Shown here: one piece after another, positions 12,036-18,967 of the stretch
Layout: every line of letters starts with the position of its first letter
Position numbering within the stretch: the stretch's first letter is position 1
NCBI GenBank assembly: GCA_944325695.1
Contig: CALVBA010000001.1
Span: 1 to 64,000 of the forward strand
From: an uncultured Anaeroplasmataceae bacterium
GTDB lineage: Bacteria > Bacillota_I > Bacilli_A > Acholeplasmatales > Anaeroplasmataceae
Direction: 5' to 3'
Length of the DNA: 64,000 nt
Notes under the pieces: model-generated
Told to the model about the DNA's origin: nothing
The model's input: only the letters and a program-made list of their open reading frames with translations
Databases searched by the model: none
Position numbers and translations under genes: made by a program

Positions 12036-13697
12036 TTAACATTTAAAAATAATCTTTATTTGTGTTCCAACATCTAAAATGCTATCTAATCGAACTTTAT
12101 AGTTGAATTTTTCACAAATATGTTTAACAATCGCTAATCCTAATCCTGTTCCACCAATAAGTTTACTCTTAGCTTTATCTACACGATAGAAACGTTCAAA
12201 AACACGTTCTTGATCAGAATTTGAAATACCAATTCCACTATCTTTAATTACAAACATTTCTTCATTCAAAATTATTTCAATTGAACCATTAATTTTATTA
12301 TATTTAATAGCGTTATCAATTAAATTACTAAATAAAGTTTCAATCTGTTCCTTATTGGCATTTAAATAACAATGCGTAATATTTTTTTTAACAGTAATAT
12401 TTTTATCCTTTATTTTATTATCATACCTTAAAATAATATCATTTAAAATCATTGCTATATCCAAAAACTCCATAGCATAATCTTTTTTATATTCTAAATT
12501 AGATAATTCTAACATATCAATAATAATTTGATTCATCCGGTTAGCTTCTTTTAAAATTTGTGATGATGCTTTATTTATTTCTTCTTTATCACTAATAATC
12601 CCGTTATTAATCATTTGTTGATATCCAATAATTGAAGTCAATGGACTTTTCAACTCGTGTGAAGCATTAGCAAAAAAATCTTTTTTCATTTGTTCTATTT
12701 TCTGCTTTTCTGTAATATCTATAAACGTTATTAATGTCCCACATTTAATCCAATTATAATTAAAACTTCGGATGATAAAATAATAGTATCGATTATTAAT
12801 CTCTAATGTCTTAGAACTACTTTTTTTAAAGTTAATACACGTTTCAATTAAATCTTGCAACTCTTTATCCCGAATCAAATATAAATAAGATTTATTAATG
12901 ATTTTTTCTTTACTAACTTTAAAAACATTTAAAGCTTGATTATTAATAATATTGATATTGTTATCACTTAATAGAATTAATCCTTGTTGCATTTCCTTTA
13001 AAAGAGCTTCATTTTTTGCTACCTCATCTTCAATTTGAATGATTTTTCTTTCAAGCTCTTTTTTTATTAAATTAACAATTTTTGGTAAATCATCCACTGT
13101 TTTTATCCTTAATTCTGAATCATTATTATTCAAAATCATTTCTAATGTATTAATTGAATCATTAATCGGACGAATAATCTTTTTCGATAAAACATTCATT
13201 AATAAAGTACTTAAAAGCATAATTATTATAATAGTAATTATCCCTAACACGATATAATTGATTAAATTAGGGGTAAAAATGACCATTTCTAAACTAACTC
13301 TAATATAAGTATTATTTGATAAATCTGCGATATACATCATTTTAATACCAAACGTTTTAGAATCACGAATAAAAATTTGCCCTAAATGTTTTATCTCATC
13401 TCTAGATAAATGATTTTCCATCATACTTTCATTATCATGGAGTGTATCATAGATAACATTTCCATTTAAATCAATAAAAGTTACTCTTATTTTAGAATTA
13501 GCTTCAACTAAGACGTTAGATACTTCTAAATGGTTTGTTCCATCATAGTTATTCAATGCAATACTTAAGTAAGAAGTAATTTCTTCTTTCGTTGTTATTT
13601 TATTATCTTTTATCGTGGATAAAATCGATGTTGTAAATAATGTTGTGACTGATAATAAAACTACTATTAAACCTAAAGCAATAATTCGTTTTTTCAT
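12036..13697 (-). CDS. phoR: phosphate-sensing histidine kinase PhoR
   Basis: A 553-residue membrane sensor kinase: transmembrane segment about 5-27, an extracytoplasmic domain about 28-145, and a second transmembrane segment about 148-168. A HAMP-like linker and a PAS-like domain (about 230-330) follow. The HisKA domain has the phospho-acceptor His347 in NASHELKSPL. The ATPase domain has NLIDNAIKYN (N box), DSGIGIS (G1), FERFYR (F box) and GGTGLGLAIV (G2). It should phosphorylate the response regulator encoded immediately upstream, with which its ATG overlaps by four bases. It is the last gene of the pst-pho cluster. No clear terminator follows. Confidence 0.92.
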   Translation of the reverse strand: MKKRIIALGLIVVLLSVTTLFTTSILSTIKDNKITTKEEITSYLSIALNNYDGTNHLEVSNVLVEANSKIRVTFIDLNGNVIYDTLHDNESMMENHLSRDEIKHLGQIFIRDSKTFGIKMMYIADLSNNTYIRVSLEMVIFTPNLINYIVLGIITIIIIMLLSTLLMNVLSKKIIRPINDSINTLEMILNNNDSELRIKTVDDLPKIVNLIKKELERKIIQIEDEVAKNEALLKEMQQGLILLSDNNINIINNQALNVFKVSKEKIINKSYLYLIRDKELQDLIETCINFKKSSSKTLEINNRYYYFIIRSFNYNWIKCGTLITFIDITEKQKIEQMKKDFFANASHELKSPLTSIIGYQQMINNGIISDKEEINKASSQILKEANRMNQIIIDMLELSNLEYKKDYAMEFLDIAMILNDIILRYDNKIKDKNITVKKNITHCYLNANKEQIETLFSNLIDNAIKYNKINGSIEIILNEEMFVIKDSGIGISNSDQERVFERFYRVDKAKSKLIGGTGLGLAIVKHICEKFNYKVRLDSILDVGTQIKIIFKC

Positions 13698-14359
13698 TCT
13701 AATACCTTATACCCGATACCATAAACAGTCGAAATAACTTTATAATTTTTTTCAATTTTATTGCGTAAACTCTTAATATGCATATCAATTGTTCGCGTTT
13801 CTAACATCTTTTCATTATTCCACACAGCACTAAAAAGTTCTTCACGTGAGATAACTTTTCCTTTATTTTTCAAAAGATATACCAAAATATCAAATTCCTT
13901 ATTAGTTAAATCAATGCTTTCATCACCGATAAAGCACGTTCTTTTCTCAATATCGATAAAAATATCTTTATAATTAAATAATTTTTTCTTATGACGACGA
14001 AATTTAGCTCCTACACGACTCATTAATTCCAACAAATCAAAAGGTTTTTCAATATAATCGTCTGCTCCTAAATCAAAACCATCAACCTTATCCATAACCA
14101 TTCGATTAGCTGAAACGATAATCACCTCAATATCATCATTAGTAGAATCATTGCGAATTATTTTCAAGATATCTGATCCTGAATAATCCGGCAACATCAT
14201 ATCTAACAAAACCATATCAGGTTTTTTCTTTTTAAAAGCTTCTAAAAAACTATTTCCATCATAAAAACTTACTACCTGATATCCTTGATGGGATAAAGTT
14301 TTATTGATAATTTGTGAAATATCTTTATCATCTTCTACTGAATAAATTAAGAAACTCAT
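13694..14359 (-). CDS. phoP: response regulator PhoP (OmpR/PhoB family)
   Basis: A 221-residue two-domain regulator. The receiver domain (1-120) has acidic EDD at 9-11, phospho-acceptor Asp53 in VLLDMMLP and a conserved Lys in IEKPF. The C-terminal winged helix (about 130-221) includes LTNKEFDILVYLLKNKGKVISREEL and RTIDMHIKSLRNKI, of the PhoB/OmpR type. The context (pst transporter, phoU, phoR) assigns it to phosphate control. TTTACA repeats upstream of pstS are its likely target. Confidence 0.93.
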   Translation of the reverse strand: MSFLIYSVEDDKDISQIINKTLSHQGYQVVSFYDGNSFLEAFKKKKPDMVLLDMMLPDYSGSDILKIIRNDSTNDDIEVIIVSANRMVMDKVDGFDLGADDYIEKPFDLLELMSRVGAKFRRHKKKLFNYKDIFIDIEKRTCFIGDESIDLTNKEFDILVYLLKNKGKVISREELFSAVWNNEKMLETRTIDMHIKSLRNKIEKNYKVISTVYGIGYKVLE

Positions 14360-14380: not shown

Positions 14381-15016
14381 TTAATAAATTTTTTTATCTT
14401 TGTGATACCCATTAATCATATATATAACCCATTCAGCAATGTTTACTGAATGATCAGCAATTCTCTCTAAATATTTTACCACTAATGTTGTATAGATTGC
14501 AAATGGAACATATTCTTGATTACAATCTTGTGGATGAGCTAGCTCCTCAACAATTTCTAAATATTTTTGATCCACATAATCGTCTTGTTTAATAACTTCA
14601 TTGGCTAATTCTAAGTCACTATTAATATATGATAAAATCGAATTTTTTAACATTTGTAAAACATATTTAGCTAAGTTATCAATACTTTGACTATGTTTTT
14701 TAGGAATATCTTTTAGTTTCGTCGAAAAATTCATGACATCTTCAGCGTGATCCCCGATTCTTTCAACATCTGCTACTAATTTTAATATTCCAGTTACTTG
14801 TTTTAAATCACTCGCATATGGGCGTTCACGAAGTAAAATATTAATACAAATTTCTTCTATTAATCGCTCATATTGATCAACAATATCATCGTTGATTGTC
14901 GTTAATTCATCGTTATTAGTAAAAACATTCATCGCCTGAGTAATATTATCAACTACTACATCACCCATTTTTAATAACATTTGTTTTAAATTTTCTAATT
15001 CTTTTTCTAATTGCAT
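14381..15016 (-). CDS. phoU: phosphate transport regulator PhoU
   Basis: A 211-residue all-helical protein with the two three-helix repeats of PhoU, each with a metal-binding motif. The first reads LVADVERIGDHAEDVMNF and the second VKYLERIADHSVNIAEWV. In known systems PhoU links PstSCAB transport state to PhoR signalling and restrains uptake. It sits between pstB and phoP, 12 bases after pstB. Confidence 0.95.
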   Translation of the reverse strand: MQLEKELENLKQMLLKMGDVVVDNITQAMNVFTNNDELTTINDDIVDQYERLIEEICINILLRERPYASDLKQVTGILKLVADVERIGDHAEDVMNFSTKLKDIPKKHSQSIDNLAKYVLQMLKNSILSYINSDLELANEVIKQDDYVDQKYLEIVEELAHPQDCNQEYVPFAIYTTLVVKYLERIADHSVNIAEWVIYMINGYHKDKKIY

Positions 15017-15028
15017 AATAATTACCTC

Positions 15029-15775
15029 CTATCCAAAACGACCCGTAATATAATCTTCTGTTTTCTTATTTTTAGGATTTTTAAATAGTTCGGTTGTTTC
15101 ATTATATTCAACAACTTCACCTAATAAGAAAAAGGCAGTATAATCAGAAACACGTGTTGCTTGTTGCATGTTATGTGTGACAATTACGATAGTATAATCT
15201 TTTTTTAACTCTGAAATTAGTTCTTCGATTTTTAAAGTAGCTATTGGATCTAATGCACTAGTTGGCTCATCCATCAAAATAACATCAGGTTTCATTGCAA
15301 TTGCTCGAGCAATACATAAACGTTGTTGTTGTCCTCCTGATAGCCCTAAAGCATTATCTTTTAAACGATCTTTAACTTCTTCATATAATGAGGCTTTTTT
15401 TAAAGAATCAATAACAATTTCTTCTAGTTGTGCTTTATTCTTAATTCCACTACATCTTGGTCCATATGCCACATTATCAAAAATAGACATTGGGAAAGGA
15501 TTAGGTTGTTGAAAAACCATTCCTACCTTTGTACGTAAATCAATTGGATTTAAATCATAAATATTTTGATCTAAATATTCAATTTTTCCATCAACACGGC
15601 AATTATTGATTAAATCATTCATGCGATTTAAACAACGTAATAAAGTTGACTTCCCACATCCTGATGGTCCAATAAAAGCCGTTACTTTATTGTGATAAAT
15701 ATCTAATGAAACATTCTTTAAGACATGTTTTTCTCCATAAAATAAATTTACATTTTCAATTTTAAAATCTATCAT
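15029..15775 (-). CDS. pstB: phosphate ABC transporter ATPase PstB
   Basis: A 248-residue ATPase with Walker [21 protein letters not shown], where the RCLNRMND extension is diagnostic for PstB. The Q-loop is [19 protein letters not shown], the signature [14 protein letters not shown], Walker [14 protein letters not shown], and the switch His lies in VTHNMQQA. It powers phosphate import with PstC and PstA. Its ATG overlaps the pstA stop (TAATG). Confidence 0.97.
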
Positions 15776-16995
15776 TATTGTGCCACCGCCATCTTATTTA
15801 ATTTTTTAGAAATTAGTTTAATAAAAATTGATAATACTAATACAACAATTAAAATAAAAATTGCAATTGCTGAAGCAGTACTATAGTTTGGGTTTTCTCC
15901 CTGCATTAATGACCAAATATGAAGCGATAAAGAAGTAGCCGAATTAGTTAAGCTAATATCATCTGCAATACTTGTCCCCATAACAAAAATTAATGCTGCT
16001 GATTCTCCAATAATTCTTCCAATACATAGAAGTGTAGCTGTTAAAATTCCTGGAATAGCGTTTGGTAAAATCACTTTAAATACCGTTTGTGTTTTAGACG
16101 CTCCTAAGGAAAGAGATGCCATGGTATAGTGACGAGGAATAACAGCTAAAGCCTCAGTTGTTGTTTTAATAATTGTCGGTAGTAAAACAATCACCATTGT
16201 TAAACTACCCGCTAAAATACTATAACCACTTGTTTTAAATGTACCATCACAAAAAGGAATAAAAATCAATGCTCCACAAAAACCAAAAATGATTGAAGGT
16301 AATCCGCTTGTCATATCAATCATTGAAATTAAAATATGCTTTAATTTTCCATCTTTAGCGTATTCTTTTAAATAAATTGCAGCCAAAACGCCGATTGGTA
16401 AAGCGATAATTAATGTAACCAAAATAAGTTCTAAAGTGGCAATTAAAGATCCTCTTGCACCGCCACCTCCTGTCTTACATTGTGCTTGAAAGATCGTATC
16501 GTAGTTATCTAATTTAGAAGCAATTTGTAAAGCTCCATCTTTAGCATACAAAAAACTTATCATTCCTGTTTTAGAGTCTTTTAAAATTAAAGTATCTAGA
16601 CGAGTATTCTTTTCTAATCGATATGTTTCTCCATTAATTGTTTTAGCTTTTAAAAATGGAGAATTTTGATGAATATACACAACCTCCACAGCTTTATTTC
16701 CATCTGTTGTTTTGGTATCACGAATCGATATACCATACCGACTACTAAAATATGCATCATCAATATTAGGATCAGTAAAAACCTCTTCTGTTGCCTGTAA
16801 AGTGATGGTATTTAAAGTTTCTTTATTATCTGATGTTAAAAGACGTAAATTAAAATTAGGTAACCCTGTTGCTAAAATATAAATAATAATTCCAAATAAA
16901 ATAATGACACAAAAAGATGTCGCTAAAAAAGTGGTTGTTAGCTTAATAGCATCGGTTACTTTACGCTTTTGATTATATTTACTAGTACTAAGCAT
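15775..16995 (-). CDS. pstA: phosphate ABC transporter permease PstA, with an extra extracytoplasmic domain
   Basis: A 406-residue permease, about 100 residues longer than usual for PstA (near 290-300). The core is normal: a first transmembrane helix (about 22-44), [28 protein letters not shown], the coupling loop with [24 protein letters not shown], and a final helix. The extra piece is residues about 55-172, between the first helix and the second. It contains YGISIRDTK and [12 protein letters not shown], which loosely resembles a PDZ-like fold. It would sit outside the cell beside PstS. It overlaps pstC by eight bases. Confidence 0.93.
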
Positions 16996-17917
16996 TGCTA
17001 TATTTCTCCATTCTCTTCTTGATTGTATTTAAAATGACATTAGTGATAATAATTACAATAATTAATAAAATCCCAGCACTAAAACGAATGTCATAATCAA
17101 TTCCCGAACTTTCATGCATTTCCAACATCATAGTAGAAGTTAATGTTCTTGTTATATCAAACAGTCCAAAATTTGGACCTTTCGTAGCATTACCACATAC
17201 CATTGAAACAGCAGTCGCCTCACCTAAAGCCCGACCAACACCTAAGATTAAAGCAGCAAATATTCCTGATTTAGCCCCATTTAATACAACTTTAAAATTT
17301 GTTTGTGTATAAGATGCTCCAAGAGCAAGACTTGCTTGAATTTGCGAATCTTTAACAGCTTTCATTGATGTAACAGAAAGCATAGTAATTGTAGGAATCA
17401 TCATAATTGTTAAAACTAAAACCGTCGATAAAACCGATGTCCCTCCAAATGTTTGTACATTAAAGAAATTAGCAATATTTTTAACAATCGGATTGATAAT
17501 TCCACTTCCAAATAATCCAAAGATGATTGATGGAATAGCAGCTAATAATTCAACTACATTATTTACAAATACTGATACAGCTTTAGGGGCAATCCGTACA
17601 ATAAATAAAGCCGTCAATACTGAAATTGGTAAAGCAATAATTGTCGCTAAAAAAGTTACATAGATTGTGTTGATTAAAGCTCCTAAAGCTCCATAAGCGG
17701 CATTTAATTTAATCCATGAAGTCGAAGTTAAAAAAGTCATCAAATTAGCTTTTAAATACCCATCAGAAGTAGGATATTTTAGTAAAAAGGGACTAATCCC
17801 TTTAACTAAAATAAAAGCAATAACAAAAATAATTGTCGAAGCACATAAAAAGGCAATCACCAATAAAATATATCTAACAACATTATCAATCTTAATTTTA
17901 CTTTCACTATTATACAT
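16988..17917 (-). CDS. pstC: phosphate ABC transporter permease PstC
   Basis: A 309-residue permease with six predicted membrane helices. Family signatures are the LLAAIPSIIFGLFG stretch and the coupling loop SLALGASYTQTNFKVVLNGAKSGI. The next helix includes GVGRALGEATAVSMVCGN, the conserved G-R-A-x-GE segment. It forms the translocation path for phosphate together with PstA. It is separated from pstS by a short hairpin. Confidence 0.96.
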   Translation of the reverse strand: MYNSESKIKIDNVVRYILLVIAFLCASTIIFVIAFILVKGISPFLLKYPTSDGYLKANLMTFLTSTSWIKLNAAYGALGALINTIYVTFLATIIALPISVLTALFIVRIAPKAVSVFVNNVVELLAAIPSIIFGLFGSGIINPIVKNIANFFNVQTFGGTSVLSTVLVLTIMMIPTITMLSVTSMKAVKDSQIQASLALGASYTQTNFKVVLNGAKSGIFAALILGVGRALGEATAVSMVCGNATKGPNFGLFDITRTLTSTMMLEMHESSGIDYDIRFSAGILLIIVIIITNVILNTIKKRMEKYSNA

Positions 17918-17963: not shown

Positions 17964-17974
17964 TTTTATTTTAT

Positions 17975-18967
17975 TTATTCAATAATTTGGCTCCATGTGC
18001 TAAATGTTCCATCATACATTTTTCGTAAATCCATAGCCGTTACTGACTCTAATGTGTTTTCTGCATTTACTACTGCTACAATACCATCTTTACAAATTGT
18101 TCCATAAGTTCCAGCAACTGCTGGTTCAGATCCTTCTAATTCGATTTCGCGTGATAAGAAACCGATATGTAATTTATTAACACCATTTTTTTCATCACCT
18201 TGAGTTCTTGAATAAGCATCTCCAGAACCTGTATGATTTTGTTTAAAAGCAAATGTCGGACAAACTTCTTCAAAAGCTTCAGCTAAAGCTTTGGCAACTT
18301 TTTGAACTGATGTCGAACCACCAAGATTAATCATTGTTTTAGACCCTGTTTTTTCAACTGTTGCCTTTACACGAGCATCACTTGCAATAACTTCAGACCA
18401 TGTTTTATCAGGAATATTAGTTAAAATACCATCTTGACCACCAATAATACTTGCACCTTCAACTGTGTTGATATATTTTAAAAATGAATAAACCAAATCT
18501 TGTTCATTTTCAGACATATCTGAATCTTGACGTAATATATAGTTAAAATTACGTGATAAAGTATAACTTCCATTAATAACATTTTCTTCTGTTGGCTCTA
18601 CTCCTTCAAAATCTAATCCTTTTAAATTAGATCCTTCTAATGACGATAAAGAGATATAACCAATTCCATATTCATCGTTTTGAATTTTTGTAATCATATC
18701 TCCATTACCAGTAACAATGGCTTTGCTTTCCACTAATACAGCATCAGATTTAATAGCTTCTTTCCAACCTAATGCAGTGAAAAAACCATCTCTTGTTCCA
18801 GAAGAAGTATTACGTGTATAAACTTTGATATTTTTACTAGTATCAAAGCTACTTGTAATTTGATCACTTGATCCTTGTTGCGATGATGAATCTTGGTTAT
18901 TGTTGCATCCAAACAAAGATAAACATGCAATAAATCCTAAAGGTAATAATAATAATTTTTTTATCAT
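17975..18967 (-). CDS. pstS: phosphate-binding lipoprotein PstS, circularly permuted
   Basis: A 330-residue lipoprotein with lipobox LFGC (Cys21). The order of its halves is reversed compared with ordinary PstS. Residues about 46-185 match the C-terminal part of the family: VYTRNTSSGTRDGF, then GIGYISLSSL, GVEPTEENVINGSYTLSRNF and the FLKYINTVEG helix. Residues about 205-330 match the N-terminal part: INLGGSTSVQKVAKALAEAF, NHTGSGDAYSRT, then DGIVAVVNAENTLESVTAMD and FSTWSQI. Both phosphate-binding loops (SSGTRD, and TGSGDA with GGSTS) are present. The start is ATG 18967 with GGAGG upstream; an in-frame ATG at 18988 lacks a site. It heads the pst-pho operon behind a PhoP-box-like promoter. Confidence 0.92.
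   Translation of the reverse strand: MIKKLLLLPLGFIACLSLFGCNNNQDSSSQQGSSDQITSSFDTSKNIKVYTRNTSSGTRDGFFTALGWKEAIKSDAVLVESKAIVTGNGDMITKIQNDEYGIGYISLSSLEGSNLKGLDFEGVEPTEENVINGSYTLSRNFNYILRQDSDMSENEQDLVYSFLKYINTVEGASIIGGQDGILTNIPDKTWSEVIASDARVKATVEKTGSKTMINLGGSTSVQKVAKALAEAFEEVCPTFAFKQNHTGSGDAYSRTQGDEKNGVNKLHIGFLSREIELEGSEPAVAGTYGTICKDGIVAVVNAENTLESVTAMDLRKMYDGTFSTWSQIIE

Follow-up and report, generated by a model that had tools for sequence, protein, structure and literature searches.

The pstS gene of the window (the whole stretch of DNA analysed here, 64,000 nucleotides from an uncultured Anaeroplasmataceae bacterium) raises the question of whether a phosphate-binding protein that carries its two halves in reversed order can still serve its importer, and of how such an order came about. 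When each half was aligned separately to canonical PstS structures, the arrangement proposed in the earlier note, with the normally C-terminal half (C-half) first and the normally N-terminal half (N-half) last, was borne out (Table 1). In a phmmer search of the PDB, the canonical PstS proteins of Clostridium perfringens (4Q8R, 4GD5) and Vibrio cholerae (1TWY) matched the window protein in two separate domains whose order is swapped, with residues 47–177 corresponding to 4Q8R 120–239 and residues 211–328 to 4Q8R 4–113 (i-Evalues 6e-12 and 2e-6). NCBIfam profile TIGR02136 also matched twice and in swapped order (18452–18838 to profile positions 161–283, 17969–18355 to positions 31–160), and the N-terminal part of PF12849 (positions 1–125 of 267) matched residues 207–327. 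The two TIGR02136 stretches score 101.9 bits, below the curated cut-off of 206.6 bits, because a linear profile cannot span both of them, and linear profile models of this kind under-score a widespread permuted group. Canonical PstS proteins share homologous halves, binding residues and fold with the window protein, but they place the N-half first, use a short GG(A/K)DxP linker and lack the Trp-bearing joint helix, whereas the window protein has its C-half first and carries that helix. The N-to-C order of halves that is usual for the PstS family is thus confirmed to be absent here, and the variant lies in the order itself. The joint and the new chain ends (TWSQ/VYTR) had been placed correctly beforehand, with the limits of the halves and joint right to within a few residues.

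Table 1. Features of pstS and its operon in the window.
Feature	Coordinates	Strand	Remarks
pstS, 330 aa, permuted (signal, C-half, joint, N-half)	17975..18967	-	ATG at 18967, stop ends at 17975
Signal peptide and lipobox, residues 1-21, lipid-carrying Cys21	18905..18967	-	Cys invariant, 35 relatives
C-half (canonical PstS C-terminal part), residues 46-178	18434..18832	-	
Phosphate loop SSGTRD, residues 55-60	18788..18805	-	S56, G57, T58 kept in nearly all rows
Joint, old C-terminus to old N-terminus, residues 179-210	18338..18433	-	Invariant Trp190
N-half (canonical PstS N-terminal part), residues 211-330	17978..18337	-	
Loop GGSTS, residues 216-220	18308..18322	-	G217 and S218 invariant
Loop TGSGD, residues 246-250	18218..18232	-	G247 and S248 nearly invariant
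pstC	16988..17917	-	TIGR02138 above cut-off
pstA, 406 aa, ~120 extra residues ahead of core	15775..16995	-	TIGR00974 above cut-off, core from residue 174
pstB	15029..15775	-	ABC_tran; annotated from operon place
phoU	14381..15016	-	PF01895, two stretches
Response regulator, PhoB-like	13694..14359	-	PF00072 and PF00486
Sensor histidine kinase, PhoR-like	12036..13697	-	HisKA and HATPase_c

An AlphaFold2 model of the window protein, built with 35 relatives, has the complete two-lobe type II binding-protein fold of the PstS family (mean pLDDT 90.9, pTM 0.82). Foldseek, which aligns in sequence order, returned a single strong full-length PDB match to this model, 4H1X (E 3e-24, TM-score 0.83 on the target), and canonical PstS entries matched poorly or by one part. 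This entry is PstS2 (SP_2084) of Streptococcus pneumoniae TIGR4, which has the same permuted order and the same cut point as the window protein at ~27–30% identity, and in phmmer its residues 7–264 align collinearly with window residues 43–328 as one domain. The prediction therefore shows one permuted domain pair that matches 4H1X, and the two outcomes that the earlier note had named as contradicting its reading, an ordinary N-to-C alignment of the halves or a model with two incomplete lobes, did not occur. The second-best sequential fold match was OpuAC of Bacillus subtilis (E 1e-5, 12% identity, TM-score at most ~0.5), which, unlike PstS, binds betaine. The halves of OpuAC are dislocated relative to those of E. 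coli ProX.

Both binding loops were expected to survive in an intact gene at the head of a complete pst-pho operon, and this held: the frame is open, the core loop residues and the lipobox Cys21 are invariant among 35 relatives, and pstS is followed by domain-matched pstC, pstA, pstB and phoU and then by paired genes for a response regulator and a histidine kinase. Permuted and canonical proteins, and also the reverted and third-topology proteins described below, show little or no variation at R52, S56, G57, T58, G217, S218, G247, S248, S272 and R273. R52 aligns with Arg125 of the 4Q8R chain, an arginine named in PMC12421899 as a phosphate contact. Since the loop residues are conserved and the operon is intact, the window protein is expected to bind phosphate and feed the Pst importer.

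Several other readings of the gene were weighed against this one. The gene might be decayed or serve another function, such as binding a different anion or acting in signalling alone; where this protein has Asn53, the other 120 rows have Asp/Glu, and this is the only PstS in the genome, leaving no backup copy for comparison. As the reading frame is open and the lipobox, the remaining loop residues and the operon are intact, we consider this quite improbable. Comparably improbable is a domain-swapped dimer, in which the C-half of one chain would pair with the N-half of another; the sequence is compatible with it, and the tandem proteins described below could pair N1 with C2, but the confident monomer model and the full-length match to 4H1X argue for a fold within one chain. 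The window comes from a 56-contig draft, which might suggest an assembly artefact, yet the same order is found in complete chromosomes (L104, CP076020; L118, CP017948) and in the crystal structure 4H1X, reducing the chance of an artefact almost to nothing; recurrence in dozens of independent genomes and in 4H1X rules out chance or assembly error as the source of the permuted order. We therefore hold with high confidence that the window encodes a working, membrane-tethered PstS of a Pst importer, ancestrally permuted, likely through tandem duplication and trimming, with fold and cleft predicted to be unchanged.

The search of related genomes called for in the earlier note found the same order in dozens of independent genomes. 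We searched 392 genomes of the window's phylum with a doubled C-N-C profile, to which permuted proteins match at positions 1–265 and canonical ones at about 145–400, and counted strong matches (E below 1e-60) by hand. Some 105 genomes held such matches, ~80 of them permuted and ~25 canonical (one genome with both), with one at another register; the tally was taken from this profile since other counts favour permuted proteins, canonical ones scoring in two pieces. Most PstS genes found in the window's own family and order are permuted, and permutation is common to much of Acholeplasmatales, Izemoplasmatales and related lineages. All 80 named loci were permuted, four of them as tandem forms, although the query was built from permuted sequences and this is not an unbiased count; a single-sequence scan of genome contigs gave no matches, whereas the alignment query did. 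Far from being peculiar to the window genome, the permutation is old and widespread, and the structure of one example has been solved. A search of open-access literature found no description of PstS permutation, including for 4H1X, and the window protein is an ordinary member of a common and apparently unremarked class.

Relatives of the window gene take further arrangements. Six genomes (G003, G014, G027, G041, G058 and G189) encode a C-N-C-N PstS of ~590–680 aa in open frames, and another (G315) encodes a C-N-C-N-C-N protein of ~905 aa. The copies inside each two-copy protein tested are mutual nearest relatives in the PstS tree, and tandem copies share 80–99% DNA identity, indicating that they are recent duplications or have been homogenised. 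The PstS genes of two genomes, G008 (L153:8218-9186) and G013 (L154:1310-2281), have the canonical N-C order, yet share up to 64% identity with permuted relatives and only ~35% with canonical proteins, and are nested inside the permuted clade of the PstS tree (98% SH-aLRT). A single clade of all canonical genes was rejected for PstS with its halves concatenated (p=1.4e-5) and for the PstC+PstA+PstB operon tree (AU p=1e-127), both of which are decisive, although it was not rejected by single-half trees alone (p 0.11 and 0.06), each half being too short to decide. Both proteins also carry scars of the permuted state: the linker ahead of the C-half ends in FDTS, as the post-lipobox spacer does in permuted forms, and the DGIL...SW(D/E)EIK joint helix persists in the C-terminal tail, whereas in canonical proteins the linker is of the GG(A/K)DxP type and the tail is short. 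Judged from these sequences, G008 and G013 represent a return from permuted to canonical order.

In one genome (G234, L150:4846-5772) the order is lipobox, last C-half helices (profile 104–132), joint, N-half and C-half 2–102, with each part present once, a clean stop codon and pstC directly after. Its model (pLDDT 90.7) has the same elements cyclically shifted, and its alignments to the nearest PstS of known structure, by sequence and by fold, extend over no more than ~220–230 columns, from residue ~86 to the end. As read from sequence and model, this gene contains a third PstS cut point. The genus of G234 also includes G189, which has the tandem form.

These arrangements suggest a route by which the permutation may have arisen. 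The chain was circularly permuted in an ancestor: a short helical linker, which carries an invariant Trp, bridges the old C- and N-termini, and the new ends lie where the old TWSQ segment met the VYTR segment. The model and residue conservation predict that the two-lobe fold and phosphate cleft were unchanged, and the fold implies that the lipid anchor would move to the other lobe. The likely route is in-frame tandem duplication, producing concatemers whose ends were then trimmed, with the qualification that concatemers are seen only among descendants of the original permutation. The same process in relatives would yield the C-N-C-N and C-N-C-N-C-N forms, the return to canonical order and the third cut point. 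A C-N-C-N ancestor that lost its first C and its last N would account for the N-C order of G008 and G013 together with their FDTS and SW(D/E)EIK scars. Concatemers, reversion and a third cut, all in orthologues that occupy one and the same place in the operon, make it probable that the PstS family of these bacteria is in ongoing topological flux and provides a natural series of intermediates in the origin and reversal of circular permutations.

How often the permutation arose was also considered. It may have arisen at least twice with the same function, in a 4H1X-like group (Streptococcus, f19, f11, and probably Monoglobus and Treponema) and at least once in the window lineage. Free trees do not recover a single permuted clade including 4H1X, with Lactobacillales and Clostridia sampled sparsely, and group the 4H1X-like permuted rows with canonical f13 rows (95% SH-aLRT); in addition, 4H1X-like operons have an ordinary PstA and the main permuted clade a large one. 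However, a single origin including 4H1X was not rejected (p=0.72 for PstS; p=0.40 for the operon tree, which was built without pneumococcal genes), and the cut point is identical in both groups. We regard independent origins as a tenable but somewhat doubtful reading.

The enlarged PstA does not follow the order of PstS. In the window, the region of PstA residues ~41–175 (16471–16875, minus strand) holds an insert of ~120 extra residues, without a Pfam domain, which follows the first transmembrane helix and precedes the transporter core. PstA is ~400 aa in the main permuted clade and 277–297 aa in canonical lineages, and the main permuted clade, including the genes that reverted within it, has the insert, which is absent from canonical lineages. 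The suggestion that the large PstA is matched to a permuted PstS failed in both directions, since 4H1X-like permuted proteins occur with an ordinary-size PstA in the lineages sampled (279–319 aa in L142, L144 and L145) and the reverted canonical G008 and G013 occur with one of 398 aa. A coupling of PstA size to PstS order was rejected on these cases; the insert is a mark of lineage, untied to PstS order.

Another tethered binding protein of an ABC system is known to be naturally permuted: TpMglB-2 (Tp0684) of Treponema pallidum, a 'Type Ic' binding protein whose permutation also occurs in Gram-positive relatives (PMC4990184). Unlike the window protein, TpMglB-2 has a type I sugar-binding fold, with a permuted N lobe, and a different cut, and the two share no sequence homology; the window protein matches PstS by sequence and fold, and no MglB-type protein was among its top hits. 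Permutation per se already exists in 4H1X; what appears to be new here is that a single orthologous gene has been rearranged repeatedly. Circular permutations are normally deduced by comparing two end states, and here at least five arrangements of one transporter gene stand in related genomes, with plausible duplication intermediates and a reversal that left readable scars, so the duplication-and-trimming model is directly testable. Should every form be functional, a lipid-anchored importer would tolerate anchoring of its receptor from either lobe.

Plasmids of Monoglobus pectinilyticus and Treponema saccharophilum also carry permuted PstS genes with pst operons (L161:4465-5280 and L162:4917-5786), hinting at horizontal spread. 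In three loci two pstS genes stand side by side, the pair being permuted in L136 and canonical in L147 and L148; such pairs are possible raw material for tandem fusions. At L042 (G096), on contig DUOW01000042, which also bears L078, the end of a permuted PstS runs into the end of a histidine-kinase-like ATPase, as either a gene fusion or an assembly chimera.
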